DNA from: a virus
Virus record (IMG/VR): IMGVR_UViG_3300037459_000226
Span: 1-64,000 of that record
Length of the DNA stretch: 64,000 nucleotides
Direction: 5' to 3' (one strand)
The translations under genes and the position numbers were made by a program. The notes under the pieces were generated by a model. The model had not been told where the DNA came from and did no database searches. It worked only from the letters and a program-made list of their open reading frames with translations. How positions within the stretch are numbered: the first letter of the stretch is position 1; each line of letters begins with the position of its first letter. Below, piece by piece: positions 15,797 to 63,403 of this stretch.

Positions 15797-15865
15797 AGCC
15801 GCCCGGGAAAGCGATCGAGCCAGTCCCAAGTAGTGCGTCAACTTCGGGTTAGGGGTTGGAACGCG

Positions 15866-15893
15866 AAAAACAGCACGGTTTGGTGCTGTTTTT
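15866..15893 (+). terminator. Rho-independent terminator
   Basis: AAAAACAGCAC, a six-base loop, then GTGCTGTTTTT: an 11-bp perfect stem with its own T-run. Closes the 13699-15796 transcription unit. Confidence 0.88.
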
Positions 15894-16049
15894 GGTGCAC
15901 GGGTTTGCTCGCTCGCAGGCTGCACAACAGCGAGCGGGAACTTGGGGCCTCGACAGGCAGTTGGCTCCTCACGGGGCGGTAGGTGAAGCCGACTTTCTCC
16001 CCCAGGACGAACAGGCCCGGGGCGCGCTAAACCGTTCGAGGCAAACGAG

Positions 16050-16169
16050 ATGATCAAATACATCGGTGAAATCCAGCGGCTGCTGCAAGAGCAGTTCCCG
16101 GACACGTTCCCCCACATCCCAGATGGCATCTATCCGCTGAAGGTCTGCGGTGGGGTTGATCCTGCGTGA
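16050..16169 (+). CDS. Possible 39-residue protein
   Basis: Short frame from ATG 16050: a helix (IQRLLQEQFP) then IPDGIYPLKVCGGVD. The 'PDG-x-YP' ending recalls small phage proteins of similar size. No strong ribosome site. Offered with low confidence. Confidence 0.4.
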   Translation: MIKYIGEIQRLLQEQFPDTFPHIPDGIYPLKVCGGVDPA

Positions 16170-16440
16170 CGAACTGAAGCTGGGGGAATCTGTAGGATGT
16201 GGAAAAAAAGTGTGAGAGGTATGTGAGCTTAGGGTGCGCGACCCAAAGGGGACGGCCACCCCCGTTCAGTTTCTCACCGTAAACGCATACCATGCCACGT
16301 CTTACGATCCACTGCTGTTGTACTTAATACTGTACACTACGTAATCTGTGTACTTTATGATGCACATGGGGGCTTAGGTAACACCAATGCATCCCCTCTA
16401 ACAGCGTGCCAACAAACTCCAAACAGGGAGTGAGCAGCCC
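16170..16440 (+). promoter_or_regulatory. AT-rich non-coding island with TGTAC boxes
   Basis: 271 bases with no gene. The stretch 16310-16362 is markedly AT-rich for this genome and holds three TGTAC boxes (16319, 16331, 16349) and a TATGAT near 16356 that could be a -10. It precedes the long rightward run of small genes, so it is a plausible early promoter or operator. Confidence 0.45.
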
Positions 16441-16614
16441 ATGACATGGATGACAGACAACCCGGTGAGGGTCGACGCTTCGCATCCTCAGTGCTCGGCA
16501 TGCGGGAGCACAACGGTGCTGATCAAGGATGATGTGAGGCGTTGCTGGGAGTGCGGTGCTGTCGTGGAAGTCCCGCCGGGATTCGCAAAGCCGGTCGAGC
16601 CGACGGTTCCTTGA
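16441..16614 (+). CDS. Small zinc-ribbon protein
   Basis: 57 residues from ATG 16441 (GGGAG upstream). CSACGS...CWECGA is a clear two-knuckle zinc ribbon; the tail is Pro/Val-rich. Such ribbons occur repeatedly in this block, but this one has no neighbour overlap. Confidence 0.65.
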   Translation: MTWMTDNPVRVDASHPQCSACGSTTVLIKDDVRRCWECGAVVEVPPGFAKPVEPTVP

Positions 16615-16900
16615 CGGTTGTTTCGCCGTTGTTTCCCCCCTGTTGAGACGGCGTCTGCCGGCCGTACGTCGTCGGTGAGGCGTTTCTTCCCCGTTGGTCG
16701 AGTGATAGGGCATTCCCGCGGCTCGGTGGACGTTGAGAGCGGTCCGGCTGTTCGCGTCGTGCCGATACTTTCCGCTATTCTCCTGCCATTCCGGCCGTAA
16801 TCGTCACATTGTTGGTGTTCGGCACAACATTCTCACCCTAATAGGTTGTAGGCTGTTAAGCCTACGTTGAACTGTTCTTTTCCCTCTGGAGCAAAACGCG
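16615..16900 (+). other. Non-coding spacer with upstream hairpin
   Basis: 286 bases without a credible gene. A perfect 7-bp hairpin (GTAGGCT, loop GTTA, AGCCTAC) sits at 16848-16865, 35 bases before the next start. ACCCTAATAGG just before it could be a weak -10. Likely leader of the 16901 gene. Confidence 0.45.
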
Positions 16901-33517: not shown

Positions 33518-35293
33518 CTACAACTCTTCCGGAAACAGGAGTTTCTTGTCCGCGAGAACCAATCCGTGCGATGGGTATTCGACAAGACCGATCTTTTTCA
33601 GTAGTCGTATATTTCCGTCGAACGCGCTGGATGCAACGGAGACTTCGGCTGCATCAGCCAAATCCTGTCGCCCAATTTCTCGCGGGTATCTCGCGATCAA
33701 TACGTCGAGCAGCTTAACGTGGGCCGGCTTCAAGGCTGGGCACCGCCTCCATGCCTCATGAAGATCGTCGGTCGTCAACAAGCGATCGGTCGCCCTTGCA
33801 CGCTCGCGACCTGCATCCGTAATCGCAAGAACGCCAGCGTTGGGGTACGACAACAACTCCTCTGCCTTCAGGCATCTGACGTTTCCATCGAAAGCGCTGC
33901 TTTTCGGCGACACTCCAGCGACGGCCGCCACGACGGCTCGCTCTGGTGCCAACACACCCATCGCCTCCAGCGAAGCGAGTGAGTCGAGCAGCTTTTGGTA
34001 CTTCTTATGGAGAGGCTCTCCGTCGTAGGTCGCCTGTGTCGATTGAGTAGCTCGCTGGACGTCCTCCCGGCGGATGACCGACTTCGATCGAAGCGGCGGA
34101 TTCAACACAACCGGTGACGCTGGCGGCTCGGATATCTGAGGCACCGCTTCGCCGTTGGAGGCGCTCTCCTGATGGATCTTGGCGAGACTCGCAGCGAGAT
34201 TGTCGTGAGCCCGGTGCAACGTGGCGATTTGGCCCCTCCAGTGAAGGTTGCTTTTCGCCTCGGCCACGGTGACGGCTCGACTGATGGATTCTTTGTCGGC
34301 AACCGGCACCTGGCCATCACGCTGTTTTTCCAGCTTTGTGATATCCCGCTTCAACGCAGCAACGACTTTCTTGAGTTCCGCCGGGTCGTTGTCCTGATGA
34401 CGTTTAATCGTGTCGGCCATTGAGTCCCGCAGCGCGCCAAGATCCAGGTCGGACCGCTTGGTTGGTTGCCGGCGGCGCTGGCCGGGTTTTGGCGTGGCAG
34501 CAGAATCGAAAGTCGAGCGCCGGCGAATTTGGTAGCGGCCGAAGAGGTCCAGCCAAGCCGGAGACCACACCCATGCCTCACCGTCCTTTAGCTTCGCGAT
34601 GCTGCCGAGAAGCGCCGCCTTCTGTTCGTCAGTCCCGTGGGCGTCGGTCCAAAGTTTAACGGCCTTGATGTCCGTCGCGCCTGTGCAACGGTGGGCGATC
34701 AGCACCTCCAACTGCGTCGGGAGATCCTTGTTGACCTTGGCGGTCCGCTGAACGATCGCCGTGACTCCGAGACCGCTTGATCTGCCACGTAGCGCGATAT
34801 GGCTGATCGCCGCGACCATCTTCGCGTCTTCTGCGCGCACAGTTTGCGGTGCAAACAACTCAGCTTCTTCGAGTATCAGATGCAACGGGTCCTGGTTCTT
34901 GCGGTAGAGTTGCAATGCGAATTCTGTGACAAATCTCTTGATGCCGGACTGGCTGAGATGTTTCACGCTTAAGATCGCGGACATCCCTTCTTTCATCAGC
35001 AGATCCGCGATGAACTTTCCCGAAGTGTCTTCCAGCGGCACGTCGGCTTTATGGCCTCCGAAGATCACCACCTCCAGCCCGGCTTGTTTACCGTCGAACG
35101 ACGATACCGCCCCCCACCAGTTGTCCATCGGGTCGACCACGACCGCAGGCAAGCCCGCCCGTACCAACTCCTCAAACATCACCACGCCGGTGTTCGACTT
35201 CCCACTGCCCCGCTTTCCGAGAATGACGAACGTCTGCGTCACCGTCTCGTGGGGCAGAAACAGTTTCGGCGCCAGCTTTAACCTATTGGCCAT
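33518..35293 (-). CDS. HerA-like DNA-translocating ATPase with winged helices
   Basis: 591 residues; ATG 35293 with GGGAGG. Walker A GKRGSGKS (residues 26-33), Walker B HLILEEAELF near 145, and an Arg/Gln sensor region are of the HerA/FtsK type (DUF87). After a coiled-coil middle come two related winged-helix units, each with SSAFDGN then LLSYP or LVEYP. It may act in DNA processing, as HerA does with NurA, or in gene transfer or packaging. Confidence 0.75.
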   Translation of the reverse strand: MANRLKLAPKLFLPHETVTQTFVILGKRGSGKSNTGVVMFEELVRAGLPAVVVDPMDNWWGAVSSFDGKQAGLEVVIFGGHKADVPLEDTSGKFIADLLMKEGMSAILSVKHLSQSGIKRFVTEFALQLYRKNQDPLHLILEEAELFAPQTVRAEDAKMVAAISHIALRGRSSGLGVTAIVQRTAKVNKDLPTQLEVLIAHRCTGATDIKAVKLWTDAHGTDEQKAALLGSIAKLKDGEAWVWSPAWLDLFGRYQIRRRSTFDSAATPKPGQRRRQPTKRSDLDLGALRDSMADTIKRHQDNDPAELKKVVAALKRDITKLEKQRDGQVPVADKESISRAVTVAEAKSNLHWRGQIATLHRAHDNLAASLAKIHQESASNGEAVPQISEPPASPVVLNPPLRSKSVIRREDVQRATQSTQATYDGEPLHKKYQKLLDSLASLEAMGVLAPERAVVAAVAGVSPKSSAFDGNVRCLKAEELLSYPNAGVLAITDAGRERARATDRLLTTDDLHEAWRRCPALKPAHVKLLDVLIARYPREIGRQDLADAAEVSVASSAFDGNIRLLKKIGLVEYPSHGLVLADKKLLFPEEL

Positions 35294-35310
35294 CAATGCC
35301 TCCCAACTGA

Positions 35311-41951: not shown

Positions 41952-41957
41952 CACTTC

Positions 41958-42185
41958 TCACCGTGCAAGACACATGAACGCGAGTCCGGCAAGAAAGCCG
42001 AACATAATCCCCGCCGTCATCCCGATTGAGTAGCCAAATTGTTCGCCCGCGTGATAAGACCGGGGGCTTATCCGAACCACCTTCCCCCACGCCGGATGCT
42101 CTCCTGAATCCTCCGTGGTCTCTCGATCACGGCGATACAGAAACCCGCTACCCGAAACCCGAATTCTCAACCATTCTCTAATCAT
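41958..42185 (-). CDS. Small membrane protein
   Basis: 75 residues, GGAGGAG before ATG 42185. Basic soluble part, then a single membrane span (IGMTAGIMFGFLAGLAF). Unknown. Confidence 0.6.
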   Translation of the reverse strand: MIREWLRIRVSGSGFLYRRDRETTEDSGEHPAWGKVVRISPRSYHAGEQFGYSIGMTAGIMFGFLAGLAFMCLAR

Positions 42186-42228
42186 GCTCGAATCTCCTCC
42201 ACGGCCGCCCGGATCTTCGGGTCAGCCT

Positions 42229-42519
42229 TCAGAGCCACCATTTTTTGAGTGATCTCCACAGTACGTCCCTGAATTCCGACTGGGTTATTGCGATGTCATC
42301 GCCGTTTTCCATCTTCCACCAGCGTCCGGCGATTCGAACCCGGTATCGGTTGCTCCCGTATCCCCAGTGTGCGTCCGGGCATGGCTCGCCTCGCGACGTG
42401 ACGAACCGCTTCTTTGGCCACAGACTGGCGTCGAACAGTTCTGTTTTGTACGACTTCCATCGACCTTTTGCCTTTCTTTTGAGCAAGAATACAAGGTGTG
42501 GTTCTCGTGATTCTGACAT
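42229..42519 (-). CDS. Basic hypothetical protein
   Basis: 96 residues with many Lys, Arg and Trp (KRKAKGRWKSY, GRWWKMENG). No motif recognised. A minus-strand frame of 19 codons at 42182-42240 follows but is probably just the ribosome-site region of the next gene. Confidence 0.6.
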   Translation of the reverse strand: MSESREPHLVFLLKRKAKGRWKSYKTELFDASLWPKKRFVTSRGEPCPDAHWGYGSNRYRVRIAGRWWKMENGDDIAITQSEFRDVLWRSLKKWWL

Positions 42520-42531
42520 GCGTAGTTGAAT

Positions 42532-42726
42532 TTAAGCCTGTAATGTTGGGCTCGCTTCTCTAAGTCGATCGACTCTCTCGGCTGGTCCGGTCCCGCTGCG
42601 GTCGAGAGGGCAAGCTGCTCTGACAGACTCCACTGCCGTGACAATAGCCGGATCAGCCCGCAGTTCGCCCACCGGCCGGCGCCAATCCCCAGCCTTACCC
42701 AGCCGTTCAGTCGCTATTGGCAGCAT
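42532..42726 (-). CDS. Possible small hypothetical protein
   Basis: 64 residues, ATG 42726 but no good ribosome site. Lies directly downstream of the inverted-repeat cassette at 42739-43034. Uncertain. Confidence 0.4.
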   Translation of the reverse strand: MLPIATERLGKAGDWRRPVGELRADPAIVTAVESVRAACPLDRSGTGPAERVDRLREASPTLQA

Positions 42727-42738
42727 GATTTTAGTACT

Positions 42739-42756
42739 GATATACTTGGCTCATCA
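42739..42756 (+). repeat. Left copy of paired element, cassette 1
   Basis: GATATACTTGGCTCATCA; inverted relative to 43017-43034 with 16 of 18 matches. Overlaps the stop codon of the enclosed gene. Confidence 0.75.
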
Positions 42757-57500: not shown

Positions 57501-57823
57501 CCCCAGTCAAATCCGGGCCTGTTCCTCCCGAGGGCCCCAAAACGCTCCAACATCTCGCGGCCCCCGACTCTGTTTTCAGCAGAGAACGGGGTGAGGAACT
57601 GGTCGAATGGGTTTTCTCCGGACACGATGTCGCGAACAGATGACGCCCCGGTTGCCAGATCAAGGAAGTTGCCAACGCCCGCCAGTCCCGAGAGACCCTG
57701 GCGCATAATCAGATTGCCAACCGACTCTTGATCAGCGGTATCGCCCTGCCTCTGAGCACGAGTTGCTGGCTGCTGTCTCCCCGCGCGCGTAAGCAATCGC
57801 GCTGCTGCCGGAGAAAGCGCCAT
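54593..57823 (-). CDS. Large internal/ejection-type virion protein
   Basis: 1,076 residues, largely helical. Near residue 790 the signature IDYSARKYTQFEREKAQRLF followed by PFWKFSKNVLP is one I associate with large polyvalent or internal virion proteins of podovirus-like phages; FHTRNLFSGQVANAMHG is another. Such proteins are ejected with the DNA. No lytic transglycosylase motif was seen. Followed by a second, disordered protein in the same operon. Confidence 0.65.
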   Translation of the reverse strand: MALSPAAARLLTRAGRQQPATRAQRQGDTADQESVGNLIMRQGLSGLAGVGNFLDLATGASSVRDIVSGENPFDQFLTPFSAENRVGGREMLERFGALGRNRPGFDWGDVAGFGAEVFFDPATYATLGGSAVTKLAGTAMKNAGLMRAVTATGRGMGYGKAMGRVMLTPRQVIQTPSELKHFSRAARQLGPEGATKAGRRAMLDDPIGGLAGLHVPFGRNVAVARGSGAQLLARGMDWAGETMRATWPVRQGARLFASSVRDMSTLPIQRAASKLTGEIAGTRVQNRALVGRAIADLVEQGRVGSKDADQLRNIFEGLEAAPPEMGQMVNDVWGRLEGVRQELDYAGLRSGILDDDMVRYFPRFMTEMMYGLRRAVSGKGKKGFQTFDPTEMGRQPFLKNVEGGTVRIKQILQDPQVAAAARWQDVQTVIQSPRFRGSLPAHLEEDFSKWAHGLSENVRESGVFGNHPLVDLLAKLEMSGGAARSGKAILEMLTDTDVLGYTSRNANTKTIGNILQNANMAHGSQGVQDAAKRLGMSADDFLSRSVNADIADDIGRMMKFYQSPDGVNEVLQVVDSVTNLWKGYVTGIAPAFHTRNLFSGQVANAMHGMFSANSVRAAHAILRGRSFAGLEAIPAVRWRLMKESRALTPGNAADMIRRMAFEHELVHGQGEVASVAGQAVEQGATGLQEMAQKMPGGLGGAHPIGGMRILRKATGLEPGTTFNPLEMRGFGGRPESRFTLGAAGDEIGVYVEGMNRLAPFIQQLKRGVRPGEAADRVKAVQIDYSARKYTQFEREKAQRLFPFWKFSKNVLPPTLKLLFERPGGLMAQTLRATRHLRGEDNQILPEYISQQAAIPLGTTPQGDQRFLSGFGFMHEDPIAFAGTPKTVGLELLSRANPLIKGPLEFATGQTFFQRGPMGGRRLEDLDPTIGRIISNAKQIISGEKAERGRARPFISTGFEQLVSNLPTARITTSLRTATDTRKNAIEKVMNLFTGVRLTTLSPAAQDAVIRETAQMLMREYGANVFEKVYFSDDEKAAMTPDKLQIAEGLEAVVKQLRNNAKLRKDSNPLDAAARRR

Positions 57824-59247
57824 CAGAATCCTCCGAACGGTATGTCATACGAAGGGATGTTGCGGGTCTGCTGTCGGCGTTGCTCTTGACGTGCCGGGAG
57901 CGAGCGTTCCATTGCGATGGCCCGAAGTTCATCAATGCTCTTGCCCTGAGCGATCCCCTGAAGCAACCGGATGGTTCCCGGTTCACCGAATGCGCCGAAC
58001 CGGCTTCGCTCGGTATTGAAGAACTCCGGATCGGATCCACCCCTCGCGGAAATCCACGGCTCCAGCAACTCCAGCGACTTCTCATCAATTTCCTGCCCAC
58101 TCACGAACATGTCTTGCAGTTTTTCCTCCAGAGCCAACTCATCAAACCATAGGCCGCCGCTTTCACCCGTGCGGTGTTCCACGCCAAGGAACCCAAGAAA
58201 CTGATCGACTGAGCCACCTTCCCGATACGAATTTAGAATCTCCCTTGATTCCGTCAGTGTCGGCGTTGAACCCCCGCGCTGGCTCACACCGCCGTCTGTC
58301 TGCGCGGTTTGTGATGTCGGAGGAGTGAAGGGTGCCGCCCCACCATCACCAGCGAAGTATCGGCGACGCGATTCCTGCCGGCGCGCCATCTCGTTCGCGC
58401 GTGACTGCTGGAACTGCGTGGCGTTCTCCGGAACTTCTCCTCTTCGCATAAGGCGGTTCGCGAGAGACCGTTGAACCTGTTCCTCATACCGACTCGCCAT
58501 CGGCCCTCCCGGTCCCGATTCAGGGCCAAGGAGCGAGCCAAGGCTACGTGCCTCTCGCTTGGCTTCCAGGTTCGCCGTCGCTTCCTCCAAGCGCTGCTCG
58601 TGCGTCATCCCCGTCCGGTCGACAGCACGTTGATCAGGCGTTCTGTTGCGCTCGGCAGCTTCAAATTCTTCCTCTGGCGTCAGACCTGGATACTGCCTTC
58701 CAAAAGTATCGCCCTGCATCCCCCAAGACGGAGCACGACCTCCTTGTCGCTGCCGCCGCCGAAGCTCTTGAGCCGACACGCTGCCACTGAGAACGCTGTC
58801 GACGTTCTCGCCTTGGGTTTGCTCAAAATCACTCTCGGCTCCGAATCCGGCGTACACGTCTGCGTTGCGGGCCGCGAGGCTCTCCCTGGCTGCCCTCTTC
58901 AGATTGAAGTAACTCTCCATGCCGGCGACTTCGGGAGGAGCGTGCTCAGGTTGGCCTTGAAACGGAGAGTCCTCGCCAGTCAGCCGCTGACGGAGGCGAG
59001 CGTTCAAGTTCAGGGCCGCTGCGGGTTCACCGCCTGAAGACTGGCCAAAGTAGCCCTGTGATTGAAATCCTGTGGAGTCGAGCGTGCTCGGTCCGTGCTC
59101 TGCGCCGGGAACGTAGGCGTCCGGCGCAGGAGCAACCGATGCGAGTGCCTGGCCCGCCAATGACTGCGCAAGGCCCCGCCTGCGAGTTCGACCGCCGCGC
59201 CCGCGAGCCATTCCGCCGCGTCGCTTGCGATTCCCGATGTGTGGCAT
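57823..59247 (-). CDS. Disordered Arg/Gln/Gly-rich virion protein
   Basis: 474 residues. Strongly basic start (RKRRGGMARGRGG, RTRRRG), low-complexity middle, a few helices (EEKLQDMFVSG). ATG 59247 with AGGGG upstream, 22 bases after the structured RNA candidate. Overlaps the next gene's start (ATGA). Likely internal or DNA-binding virion protein. Confidence 0.6.
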   Translation of the reverse strand: MPHIGNRKRRGGMARGRGGRTRRRGLAQSLAGQALASVAPAPDAYVPGAEHGPSTLDSTGFQSQGYFGQSSGGEPAAALNLNARLRQRLTGEDSPFQGQPEHAPPEVAGMESYFNLKRAARESLAARNADVYAGFGAESDFEQTQGENVDSVLSGSVSAQELRRRQRQGGRAPSWGMQGDTFGRQYPGLTPEEEFEAAERNRTPDQRAVDRTGMTHEQRLEEATANLEAKREARSLGSLLGPESGPGGPMASRYEEQVQRSLANRLMRRGEVPENATQFQQSRANEMARRQESRRRYFAGDGGAAPFTPPTSQTAQTDGGVSQRGGSTPTLTESREILNSYREGGSVDQFLGFLGVEHRTGESGGLWFDELALEEKLQDMFVSGQEIDEKSLELLEPWISARGGSDPEFFNTERSRFGAFGEPGTIRLLQGIAQGKSIDELRAIAMERSLPARQEQRRQQTRNIPSYDIPFGGF

Positions 59248-59269
59248 GATCTGCCCCTGTTAAGTAAAT

Positions 59270-59514
59270 GAGTCGGGCCGGATTCAAACCGGCTTGGGGC
59301 ATCAGTAGTAGGCACAGCCCCACCGTCAAACCGTGCTGTTCCCAGTGGATTCGCTTACGCCACGGCTCCTGCTATCCGTACACGGCAGCCCTTGTCACTT
59401 GTCGGTTCCGCCGCTGCTGGTCCGTGCGAGTGGACTGTCGAGGTCCTGCCACTCTCCCAGCAGACTCCACTGCCGACCCTACACTTCCGGGCGTTTCCCA
59501 CACGCCGCCGACTC
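59270..59514 (-). ncRNA. Structured RNA candidate with tRNA-like closure
   Basis: 245 bases between the 59520 gene and the 57823 gene. The 5' end GAGTCGG pairs with CCGACTC at the 3' end (7 bp). Two bases on, GCGT/ACGC with a 7-base loop is D-arm-like. At the 3' side GCCGG-TTTGAAT-CCGGC is a T-arm directly abutting the closing helix. Between them lie CTGCTGG/CCAGCAG, GAGT/ACTC plus GGAC/GTCC, and GTAGG/CCTAC. There is no anticodon arm and no tmRNA tag frame. Could be a degraded tRNA, a novel RNA, or a 5' leader. Confidence 0.45.
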
Positions 59515-59519
59515 GTATT

Positions 59520-59879
59520 TCATTTCACATCGATGCGGATTCGTTCAACGTACCAATCGGGACGTGGGCACGCCGCCATCGGGTGCTTGCCGACGGTGTA
59601 CCACGACTCGTCACCGTCAGCGTGCACCACCTTGCACCACCACTTTTGCACATCCGGATCGGGGTGATTGACCACACTAACAGATTCGCACTGCCCCGGT
59701 ATGACCGTCGGGCCCTCAACCATCGTACTCTGCCGCCCGTCAATCTCAGCCAGCAACTCTTTAATAGTGGGCCTGTCGTCCTCCGCAGCCTTCGCCTTGA
59801 ATCCGAACCACGCCAGCGGACCAGCCGCCAATGCTGCACAGAATGTGGATAGCCAGCTACGTCTTGTCAGGTTACGCAT
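59520..59879 (-). CDS. Tat-signal protein (fourth copy)
   Basis: 119 residues, ATG 59879. TRRSWLSTFCAALAAGPLAWFG is a twin-arginine-like signal ending near Ala28. The mature domain includes VVNHPDPDVQKWWCKVVHADG. Unlike the 9.5-10.3 kb trio it is in a virion operon. Unknown function. Confidence 0.65.
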   Translation of the reverse strand: MRNLTRRSWLSTFCAALAAGPLAWFGFKAKAAEDDRPTIKELLAEIDGRQSTMVEGPTVIPGQCESVSVVNHPDPDVQKWWCKVVHADGDESWYTVGKHPMAACPRPDWYVERIRIDVK

Positions 59880-59947
59880 GTTCTGTTTGCCTTTCTCCCC
59901 GAAGATTACGACGGTCATGGTACACGCGAGGGGGCAGTCGCGAAAGA

Positions 59948-60469
59948 TTAACCGGTGTCCGACATGTTGAACAGGTAAATAATCCTCGCGCGTTTCGCCC
60001 CAATGACTTCCGTCGAGACCGGCTTGAACCCAAGAGTCCAATCCCTAATGCGATTCCGAGTGATGCCGTGGTGCGATGGATTGTCAGGGCTGTTCCACAT
60101 CAAGGGGAAGCTGAGCAGTGCGAAGCGGCGGGTGATTCGCATGACCTCCGCGAAGGCCTCAGTCTGCCGACCCTCCAGATGCTCCCAGACCTGCAAGGCG
60201 ATGAACAGGTCGTAAGACGAGTCCTCGATCGGCCACGGGGTGGTCGTTGCGTCATGCTGGACCGTCGGGCCAATGCCAGCATTCAGATCCATCGTGTCCC
60301 CGCCGGACACCAGCGGCAGACGATGCGGTCCAAGTTCAAGCGAGGATCCGAAGTCGAGGCCTCTCAGCGTCGCGACCGCTGCCGAGTAATAATCCCACCG
60401 GCTGGCGTGATAATACGGGTCGTGTCGTGCAGCAGCGTCAAACTGCGGCTTTGTCACGTAGCTTGGCAT
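59948..60469 (-). CDS. Class I SAM-dependent methyltransferase
   Basis: 173 residues; ATG 60469, within the end of the previous gene. SLELGPHRLPLV, MDLNAG, then SYDLFIALQVWEHLEG follow the Methyltransf_11 order, with a degenerate glycine motif. Paired with the glycosyltransferase-like gene upstream, so perhaps glycan methylation. Confidence 0.68.
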   Translation of the reverse strand: MPSYVTKPQFDAAARHDPYYHASRWDYYSAAVATLRGLDFGSSLELGPHRLPLVSGGDTMDLNAGIGPTVQHDATTTPWPIEDSSYDLFIALQVWEHLEGRQTEAFAEVMRITRRFALLSFPLMWNSPDNPSHHGITRNRIRDWTLGFKPVSTEVIGAKRARIIYLFNMSDTG

Positions 60470-61511
60470 CGACAAATCCCGAATGGAAAACGTCAGTTGC
60501 AAGGGCATCCTCGCCAATGAACGTTCGACTGACACGACGGGAGTTGTCTCCGCTCTGACCGTGCCCCAGCGAGGACTGCGATTTCTCCGGCGCAATATGT
60601 TGCGCGAGGCTCGGCAGAACGAAGTAGCAACGCAGACCCCGTGATTTCATCCAATGGCCGACAAAGACGTCGATCGCCGCCTTTCGAATGTCAGGAAGCA
60701 CTTCGCCGAGAACCGTAGTCCCAGGCCACGTCTTGGACTCGCGGCTGTTCACGATCTCCTCAGCGATCTTGCGTGGAAACGCCAAGGCGCAGGCCCCGAC
60801 CATGAACTTGGCGCTCACACGGTTCATGCCGACGACTGACCGTCTCCCCTCGTATTGTGTCGGGGAGTAGAGCGAGATTGCTACGGCGCCATCTGGAAAC
60901 TGGCCGTTGAGTAGTGGTCGGATACCGCGAGAGAACACGACGTCGTCTTGAACGATCAGAATCGTGTGGGCATCCGGGTAGAGCGCGATTAGATCGTGAA
61001 TGCTCTGTCTCCAATTCTTCCACGCGCCGAGTACCCGTTTGTGCTGGATCGTTCGGTGATTGCCTTTAGGAACGATTGCACCCTTCTCGGCAAAGACGGT
61101 CACGTCCACGAACCCCGCCCGTTGCAAGGATGCCAGTGTCTCTGGCAGGAAGCTGACTGACCGGTAGGCGGTCGTGACACCTACCGCAACCAGTTGGCCA
61201 GACTTCTTCGGGAAAAGCTGATTCAAAGCATCCTGGCGCTTCTGGCACTTCCCGCAATTCTCGGACTTCTCCTCGACGGATCTCCGCAGGAATCCTGGAA
61301 GAAACTTCGCAGCCCACTTGATCCAGTTGTGGATGCGATCGCCGAGACCCCGCGACGGATTGACGTGGCCCTTCTTCTGACCCGGACCGCGGCCCTCTTC
61401 CCACATCTGGAAGTACCCTTCATCTGTCTGGCAGAGCAGATGTCGGTGCTCGCTTTTCCGGATGCCGTGGCGAGGGCAGTCGCCCGGCTCGCTGCATTCA
61501 CAATTCGTCAT
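60438..61511 (-). CDS. Glycosyltransferase-like protein with N-terminal zinc segment
   Basis: 357 residues. CECSEPGDCPRHG...HLLC is a Cys/His segment, then VAVGVTTAYR, HTILIVQDDVVFSRG (D-x-D type) and FMVGACALAFPR, a GT-A-like layout. I associate this N-terminal segment with planctomycete phage proteins. Overlaps both neighbours. Confidence 0.68.
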   Translation of the reverse strand: MTNCECSEPGDCPRHGIRKSEHRHLLCQTDEGYFQMWEEGRGPGQKKGHVNPSRGLGDRIHNWIKWAAKFLPGFLRRSVEEKSENCGKCQKRQDALNQLFPKKSGQLVAVGVTTAYRSVSFLPETLASLQRAGFVDVTVFAEKGAIVPKGNHRTIQHKRVLGAWKNWRQSIHDLIALYPDAHTILIVQDDVVFSRGIRPLLNGQFPDGAVAISLYSPTQYEGRRSVVGMNRVSAKFMVGACALAFPRKIAEEIVNSRESKTWPGTTVLGEVLPDIRKAAIDVFVGHWMKSRGLRCYFVLPSLAQHIAPEKSQSSLGHGQSGDNSRRVSRTFIGEDALATDVFHSGFVDAKLRDKAAV

Positions 61512-63403
61512 GCGGTGATTTCGACTATGAGCTCGCCCTGGTTTCCGTTGCAGCAAGGCAGTTGGTCAATCTCGTCGTTGCCCCCGAATGTTAAGAGAAG
61601 CGGATCGCAGACGTCATCGCCATTTGACGCCACACTGCCGTCGTAGCAGAATCCAAGGTCTATGACTATGAACAGCTCCCAAAACCCGCCGATGCACTCA
61701 AGGGTGAGTTCGGCAGTTTGGTCGCAGAATGCTCCGCTCCCGGTCCACTTATCGCCTCCATCCCCGGTCAGTGTGATTTCAACCCCATCACCGCACGGGC
61801 AGCCTCCATTATTAACCTGCATGAACGTTGCGGTGAGTGTCTGGTTTATCCCGGGATCGGGGCAGCAGTCCGTGATCTGTTTCGGAACGCCACCCGATCC
61901 AGACGCCAGAGAATCACAGTCACAGTCGCACAGATCGACGGAATGTAAAGCCGTCTCCGGCAACGAGGTCGTCTGATCTATGATCTCCCCGGCAGCGTTT
62001 CGCGTCGTCGTGACGATGGTCTTTTCTTCAGTCAGATGCAGCACGCACTCAATCAGGTCGAGATCAACACTGGTAACGTTATCAGTGGTGGTCGTGTTGC
62101 CCGGAACAGGTACGAGGTCAGCCTTCAGGCCGCATTCACCCGATGTCGAGAGTCCCGCTCCGGCGAGTTGCGTGTTGTCAACGCTCGGCGAGTTTCCCTT
62201 GAATTTCAGGCCGCAAGAACTGCTGAGGTCGATCTCCAGCGCACAACTATCCTCGCCCGCAGCAACCTTGAGGCCCCCACCGGCCAGCGCGGAAGGGTTG
62301 ACTTCAAGTCGGCCGGTTTCAGGGTTTTTTTTCAGCCCACAGCCTGGCTTCGCACCAGCGGAATCAACGGAGTGCAAGTACCATTTGTACTGATGCCAAA
62401 AAGCAACACCGTTATCTCCGTCCTCAATTGACCCCAATGGAGATACGGAGATACGAAATATCCTGGCATCCCACGCTCCAGTGCCGTCGCCTTCCTTCAA
62501 GCGAACGAGGACGTCTTCCTCAAGGGTGATATCATCGTCACCGCGAAAATCGGAGGTGACGACTCCGTCAATCATCTCGACTCGCAGTATTTCATGCTCT
62601 GTTCCTAAGCCATACCAGCGCCCATTGAGCCTGATTCCTTCAACAATATCTCCAATGTGTTCATTTTGGAGATCAAGAAAAGAAGCTCGTGTTGGCACTC
62701 GCTCCGGAAATTCAGCACTTTCAATATCCGGCATCCCAAATGCCACGCCTTTGAAAAACGGTCCGGGATGCAGTACCTCGAATTCGCTCCCCGTATCTGG
62801 AAAGATGCGAGTAACGACTCCGTTTTTGTCGACGTGCACCTTATACGCCAGAACGCTTTTACCATGTTCCTGCAAAGTTCGCTTGATGCCGATATTGGGA
62901 CCGTCCCGGTCAAACTCGCTGCTGTTTTCAATCAGCACCTCAAACTTCGCAAGCTCGACACCGCCTTTTGGCACAACAAGAAAGATTGGGACGTCATGGT
63001 CCGGGTACGGCTCAGAAACAGCAATGAATCCCTCCCCGCCCCAATCCTTGGCAGGCCGCATCTTTCCTTTCTGCGGTCCCCACTCTTCACCGATCTTCGG
63101 TGCTGGAATGTCGGGATCATCGTCGTATCTCACCCAAGTAGGTCCAATAATCGGCGTGCAGATTCCACTTTTGTCGGCATCAACCTTGGCATACCCCAGG
63201 GCGTAGTAAACCGGAGGGGTGATATTTTGGGCCTGCTGATTGTCCGCCCTAGTCATCGTCAGGAGGACGGGACTGTCATCCTCAACTTCAATCCCTTTAG
63301 TGGTTCCTGACGCCACTCTTTCGTGTTCAACAATTGAATGGCCCGAAAGATCGACTCCGTGATTTTTGAACCTGATCCATCTCCGGAATTCCGGTGTGCT
63401 CAT
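61508..63403 (-). CDS. Structural protein, Cys-rich C-terminus
   Basis: 631 residues from ATG 63403, overlapping the upstream stop. Beta-rich, with a Gly/Asp/Thr-rich second half and a C-terminal Cys-rich region (DLCDCDCDSL, CPCGDG, PCCNGN). Probably a virion surface or tail component. Disulfides would suit an extracellular role. Confidence 0.6.
   Translation of the reverse strand: MSTPEFRRWIRFKNHGVDLSGHSIVEHERVASGTTKGIEVEDDSPVLLTMTRADNQQAQNITPPVYYALGYAKVDADKSGICTPIIGPTWVRYDDDPDIPAPKIGEEWGPQKGKMRPAKDWGGEGFIAVSEPYPDHDVPIFLVVPKGGVELAKFEVLIENSSEFDRDGPNIGIKRTLQEHGKSVLAYKVHVDKNGVVTRIFPDTGSEFEVLHPGPFFKGVAFGMPDIESAEFPERVPTRASFLDLQNEHIGDIVEGIRLNGRWYGLGTEHEILRVEMIDGVVTSDFRGDDDITLEEDVLVRLKEGDGTGAWDARIFRISVSPLGSIEDGDNGVAFWHQYKWYLHSVDSAGAKPGCGLKKNPETGRLEVNPSALAGGGLKVAAGEDSCALEIDLSSSCGLKFKGNSPSVDNTQLAGAGLSTSGECGLKADLVPVPGNTTTTDNVTSVDLDLIECVLHLTEEKTIVTTTRNAAGEIIDQTTSLPETALHSVDLCDCDCDSLASGSGGVPKQITDCCPDPGINQTLTATFMQVNNGGCPCGDGVEITLTGDGGDKWTGSGAFCDQTAELTLECIGGFWELFIVIDLGFCYDGSVASNGDDVCDPLLLTFGGNDEIDQLPCCNGNQGELIVEITA

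Follow-up and report, generated by a model that had tools for sequence, protein, structure and literature searches.

A candidate tRNA-derived, probably non-decoding RNA gene with an insertion of about 168 nt in the late-gene region of an uncultured phage

The spacer and its flanking genes

The window analyzed here is a stretch of 64,000 nt belonging to a 75,541-base IMG/VR contig of an uncultured phage. Two co-directional minus-strand genes in this window are separated by a 272-nt spacer (59248-59519), which holds a 245-nt element with tRNA-like geometry. The element runs from 59514 to 59270 on the minus strand, the same strand that encodes both neighboring genes. The 5' end of the element lies 5 nt past the TGA of the upstream gene, and its 3' end falls just ahead of a Shine-Dalgarno-like site of the downstream gene. 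Read along the minus strand, the parts are an acceptor strand, a single C, a D-like hairpin, about 168 nt, a GGGGC/GCCCC hairpin, AA, a T-arm, the second acceptor strand, A, and TTTA. The features, placed from the sequence unless another basis is given, are as follows:

59520-59879, minus strand: upstream gene, 119-aa protein whose N terminus resembles a signal peptide
59508..59514, minus strand: acceptor 5' strand GAGTCGG, 7/7 Watson-Crick with 59270-59276 (CCGACTC)
59490..59506, minus strand: D-arm-like hairpin GGCGT-GTGGGAA-ACGCC, 5 bp and a 7-nt loop
59322..59489, minus strand: insert of about 168 nt, absent from a 67-nt element of a kin phage (by comparison with L032:2997-3063)
59296..59321, minus strand: hairpin GGGGC-(16 nt)-GCCCC, placed at the anticodon-arm position by sequence, local alignment, and inference
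59277..59293, minus strand: T-arm GCCGG-TTTGAAT-CCGGC, 5 bp and a 7-nt loop (UUUGAAU)
59269..59276, minus strand: acceptor 3' strand CCGACTC and discriminator A73
59254..59258, minus strand: Shine-Dalgarno-like AGGGG of the 474-aa gene
57823-59247, minus strand: downstream gene, 474-aa protein

No annotated relatives of the flanking genes were found, and a dedicated search for relatives of the 119-aa gene, which looks like cargo, returned none. The counterpart of the 474-aa gene in kin phages (see below) adjoins a gene for a 1076-aa virion-type protein. An earlier note on this DNA had placed the element exactly between two virion genes; the exact fit between co-directional genes stands and the 474-aa gene has a virion-type neighbor in kin, whereas the 119-aa gene is cargo-like. 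No promoter or terminator was found in the spacer. In every frame its codon scores are lower than those of genes, and we rejected it as coding sequence.

An apparent hot spot for cargo genes lies between the tail block and the 474-aa gene, at 59520-61556 of the window; L021, L029, and L031 have it at the corresponding site. Its cargo includes a methyltransferase, sugar-modifying and transferase-like proteins, and signal-peptide proteins, with different content in every kin phage examined. The genome is otherwise dense, apart from 15797-16900 (1104 nt) and 41955-42753 (799 nt) of the window, where no convincing gene was found by codon score. A serine recombinase gene with a PHROG integrase / DNA invertase match (L006:10100-11257, about 70.1-71.3 kb in the genome) lies amid the virion gene block and is encoded by the opposite strand.

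tRNA-like geometry of the element

The acceptor-like helix of 7 bp, the D-arm-like hairpin, and the T-arm touching the 3' acceptor strand, all described in the earlier note, are present on the minus strand. In the isolated RNA the acceptor has a pair probability of 0.99; that of the T-arm is 0.96 alone and 0.93-0.94 in context, and the D-like arm is weak, at about 0.55. The T-arm immediately precedes the second acceptor strand and is stacked on the acceptor. Its loop contains T54, T55, G57, and A58, so that the arrangement is that of a tRNA-type 7-bp acceptor on a 5-bp/7-nt T-arm with a TTCRANY-type loop, except for U rather than C at position 56. The D-like region lacks the U8 and A14 of tRNA, and no CCA is encoded after A73, which is followed by TTTA. 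There is no tRNA anticodon arm with a 7-nt loop and U33; the GGGGC-(16 nt)-GCCCC hairpin sits there instead. Subtracting the insert leaves about 77 nt, the length of a tRNA. A plus-strand reading was rejected because its T-loop is wrong and the flanking genes are all on the minus strand.

Rarity of the geometry and folding of the insert

A scan of both strands of the window for a paired 7-mer directly joined to a 5-bp T-arm with the loop TTxRAxx returned this T-arm alone. Third-order Markov sequence yields 0.017 acceptor/T-arm pairs with all-Watson-Crick pairing per 64 kb, or 0.38 when wobble is allowed. Among dinucleotide shuffles of the spacer (n = 1000), 18.8% of the minimum-free-energy structures have an end stem of at least 6 pairs, and none of the 1000 combines such a stem with an abutting 5-bp/7-nt arm.

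Taken overall, the fold is ordinary. The minimum free energy is no better than that of shuffled sequence on either strand (z of -0.66 on the plus and +0.25 on the minus strand), and that of the whole spacer is worse than the shuffle mean. Apart from one short helix in the insert, only the T-arm and the acceptor have pair probabilities above 0.6. The insert (59322..59489) is not coding by codon scores and has no well-determined fold by pair probabilities. The several nested helices that the earlier note had drawn in place of an anticodon arm are not confirmed, and its structured domain of 170 nt is not borne out. Adding flanks of 100 nt abolishes the predicted acceptor; a genuine tRNA-Pro used as a control also collapses at 150 nt. 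Because the geometry is rare in scans and shuffles while the whole fold is ordinary, the ends of the element are notable and the fold of the insert is not.

These results bear on one alternative, that the element is an inverted repeat which arose by chance within a GC-rich spacer and that its resemblance to tRNA and to kin elements is accidental. The folding energies and the frequency of long end stems in shuffles fit this explanation, as does the fact that the candidate was picked among many windows by a pattern-seeking reader. We nevertheless consider it unlikely, given how seldom a window should contain a consensus T-arm set directly against an acceptor and given that both ends independently match one 67-nt tRNA-like gene of a kin phage, as described below.

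Searches against known RNA families

ARAGORN with default settings predicts no gene at the element, and the RF00005 tRNA covariance model leaves it unmatched even at E 10. The tRNA and tmRNA model searches of the whole record were empty and detected their controls. The tmRNA models (RF00023 and relatives) give no match at the element, where neither a credible tag frame nor a pseudoknot of the tmRNA kind was found, and the group I core model (RF00028) does not match either. Rfam searches of the window return no match of any kind at gathering thresholds and, at E 10, none resembling a tRNA, a tmRNA, or an intron. The search for DNA homologues in phages and plasmids gave nothing meaningful, and exact T-arm/acceptor scans of the viral_contigs and genome_contigs collections found none.

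An ordinary tRNA was consequently rejected, on the lack of an ARAGORN gene, a model match, and an anticodon arm. An ordinary tmRNA was rejected as well: the pair 3-70 is G3-C70, so the tmRNA alanine determinant G3:U70 is absent, and there is neither a credible tag frame nor a model match. In rejecting an ordinary tmRNA our results agree with the earlier note; its proposed search with tRNA, tmRNA, and group I intron models brought no match.

Under relaxed settings ARAGORN reports a tRNA-Gly(GCC) that has a mismatched anticodon stem and an intron of 168 nt, a tmRNA with the tag AAVYG* and a different 5' end, and also tRNAs on the opposite strand. The first of these, together with the tRNA-like length once the insert is removed, is what suggests a tRNA gene interrupted by an intron of about 168 nt that splices itself out or is excised by enzymes. 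We regard such a gene as very improbable: there is no group I match, the anticodon stem is mismatched, opposite-strand hits appear under equally relaxed settings, and one paper states that the phage group I introns known at its date were all in protein-coding genes (PMC3984707).

Compact tRNA-like elements in kin phages

True kin of the phage were reached via homologues of its portal protein and of the 1076-aa virion-type protein: G006 (73 kb), G009 (66 kb; IMG/VR phage 3300002220_000425), and G010 (43 kb). Candidates reached via the HerA-like ATPase (33518-35296) are not true kin, and the 1076-aa protein led to no proviruses in genome_contigs. Upstream of the 474-aa homologue in these three phages there is no acceptor/T-arm pair; the syntenic site is taken by other genes or a 26-nt gap, and the element is therefore not conserved in place.

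Other oddities were seen in these genomes. In G006, a homing-endonuclease-like frame (HNH-type by eye), apparently broken near its start, is inserted between the two virion-type genes (L021:12552-13116), and a minus-strand match to the Rfam int-alpA RNA occurs at L021:2215-2285 (36.4 bits against a gathering score of 35.8). In G009, the 1076-aa virion-type protein takes a 2430-aa form with a very long internal insertion (L028:2031-9323).

Elsewhere in the kin genomes, the acceptor/T-arm scan identified three compact elements:

L032:2997-3063, plus strand: G009a, tRNA-like element of 67 nt
L032:2862-2925, plus strand: G009b, tRNA-like element of 64 nt with one acceptor mismatch
L022:8663-8730, plus strand: tRNA-like element of G006, 68 nt

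The two G009 elements stand in tandem (L032:2862-3063). The kin acceptors read GRGGCGG, which becomes GRGKCGG when the window element is included, each with an abutting T-arm and no CCA. A73 is present in all elements, and G3:U70 occurs in the G006 element and G009b; G009a has G3-C70. ARAGORN at default settings misses all three, as it does the window element, and the tRNA covariance model gives 23.0 bits for G009a and 22.6 bits for the G006 element, against a gathering cut-off of 29.

G009a is the one true homologue found. A search by sequence, requiring no pairing, covered 954 kb on both strands with at most one mismatch. The 5' 14-mer GAGTCGGCGGCGTG (59501-59514) has one match outside the window, at L032:2997 (13/14), and the 3' 13-mer CCCGACTCATTTA has one match, at L032:3056 (12/13); these fall exactly at both ends of G009a. 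Of 20 end positions, 19 are the same in the window element and G009a, whereas 39 random Markov acceptor/T-arm pairs match the window ends at 11 or fewer. Their 3' halves form a local alignment of 39 columns, from GCCCCAAGCC to ATTTA, which none of 500 shuffles equals, and in which GCCCGCAGCC of G009a lies opposite the 3' strand of the GCCCC hairpin (59296..59321). G009a lacks the insert and occupies another genome position. We also considered whether the insert arose from tandem tRNAs and rejected this origin, as similarity to the G009 tandem is limited to the 3' end.

Three double changes separate the window element from G009a, at acceptor pair 4 (T-A versus G-C) and at T-arm pairs 3 (C-G versus G-C) and 4 (G-C versus A-T); all three keep pairing, and no pair is broken. 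The T-arm stem is in neither search pattern, save for its last base, and the pairs it keeps therefore count as independent evidence. The pairing-free basis holds for this one comparison; a covariation count over all four elements is partly circular, since the three kin elements had come from a scan in which pairing was a requirement. Compensatory changes in a homologue thus speak for the earlier note where folding energy speaks against it, and of its overall reading the tRNA-like ends without an anticodon arm are strengthened by G009a, whereas the specific structured domain is not retained.

Interpretation of the element

Our best explanation, to which we give about even credence, is that the element is an RNA gene of tRNA origin, probably non-decoding, which lies in a late-gene operon on the minus strand and carries an insertion of about 168 nt, and whose RNA would be processed by RNases and serve as a tRNA- or tmRNA-domain mimic or as a processing boundary. 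As part of this same reading, and with the same even weight, sequence resemblance suggests that it joins a small tRNA-like family of this phage clade, whose members in kin measure 64-68 nt. Decoding is unlikely because no element has a convincing anticodon loop.

The insertion of about 168 nt would have entered a G009a-like tRNA-derived gene between the D-like arm and the arm at the anticodon position. Processing out of the late transcript would be the most economical mechanism for producing the RNA. The acceptor/T-arm stack is the minimal substrate and recognition unit of RNase P and the 3' processing enzymes, and excision by RNase P and RNase Z is most likely for that reason: RNase P would cut the operon transcript at the 5' end of the acceptor, and RNase Z or other 3' nucleases would cut after A73. 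The product may then act as a mimic of the tRNA/tmRNA domain or as a boundary between two messages.

The main rival, which we consider somewhat unlikely, is a decaying relic, in which a tRNA-like gene of the same phage family was broken by the insertion and is now functionless. This would account for the missing anticodon, the lack of a stable insert fold, and the weak D-arm, and is in keeping with a site that is not conserved in kin and with kin elements that also score under tRNA cut-offs. Decay is harder to reconcile with 12 acceptor and T-arm pairs that are all intact Watson-Crick pairs, three of them differing from kin by double changes, and with the exact fit of the element between stop codon and Shine-Dalgarno site.

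A further possibility, modeled on what has been proposed for mycobacteriophage DS6A, is a phage-encoded tmRNA-like RNA or tmRNA-domain decoy, the acceptor/T-arm of which would mimic the host tmRNA domain and sequester SmpB or EF-Tu. Precedent comes from phage DS6A (see below), and tmRNA too has other RNA in place of the anticodon arm; the kin elements, at 64-68 nt, lack a normal anticodon arm, all have A73, and two have G3:U70. However, pair 3-70 is G3-C70 in both the window element and G009a, no tmRNA model matches, the only tag frame (AAVYG*) is not credible, and no tmRNA D-loop motif was seen, so we judge this decoy improbable.

A still broader proposal, which we regard as doubtful, is that a clade-wide family of non-decoding tRNA-like RNAs shares one conserved acceptor, and that the window holds a tmRNA-like form with a new domain of about 170 nt, made from the late operon and engaging host tRNA/tmRNA factors.

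If the RNAs of our preferred reading are processed and stable, the single DS6A precedent for a phage tRNA-domain mimic would be widened to a family, and decoy or processing roles could be tested directly. Should the window copy prove to be a relic, it would be of minor interest, but the compact kin elements would still merit study. Anticodon-less tRNA-like genes of this kind are missed because phage tRNA annotation tools need a readable anticodon.

Comparison with known systems

Like the phage tRNA genes described by RF00005, the window element has an acceptor stacked on a T-arm, A73, and a D-like hairpin; unlike them, it lacks U8, A14, C56, an anticodon arm, and a model match, and it contains an insert.

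Bacterial Y RNA (YrlA) carries a tRNA-like module in a non-decoding RNA. By general description the window element resembles it in this module, although the window has no Rfam match at gathering score.

The mycobacteriophage DS6A tmRNA has no CDS and consists of little more than a tRNA-like domain; it is reported to inhibit host tmRNA, and plastid tmRNA forms of about 65 bp have been called similar to it (PMC4131195, PMC11915505). The window element shares with tmRNA and DS6A a phage-borne acceptor/T-arm domain in which other RNA replaces the anticodon arm, so that, by analogy, a processed-decoy role like that of the DS6A tmRNA-domain RNA of about 65 nt may be envisaged. It differs from them, DS6A being compared by its published description, in having no G3:U70, tag frame, or tmRNA model match. 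Because both the window element and G009a are without G3:U70, we do not file the window element under the DS6A type.

The closest comparison is with G009a, which differs in length (67 nt versus 245), in the absence of the 168-nt insert, and in genome position. The two are alike in their 5' ends, in their 3' ends with the ATTTA tail, and in the pairing of acceptor and T-arm, and each has A73 without CCA just upstream of a Shine-Dalgarno-like site.
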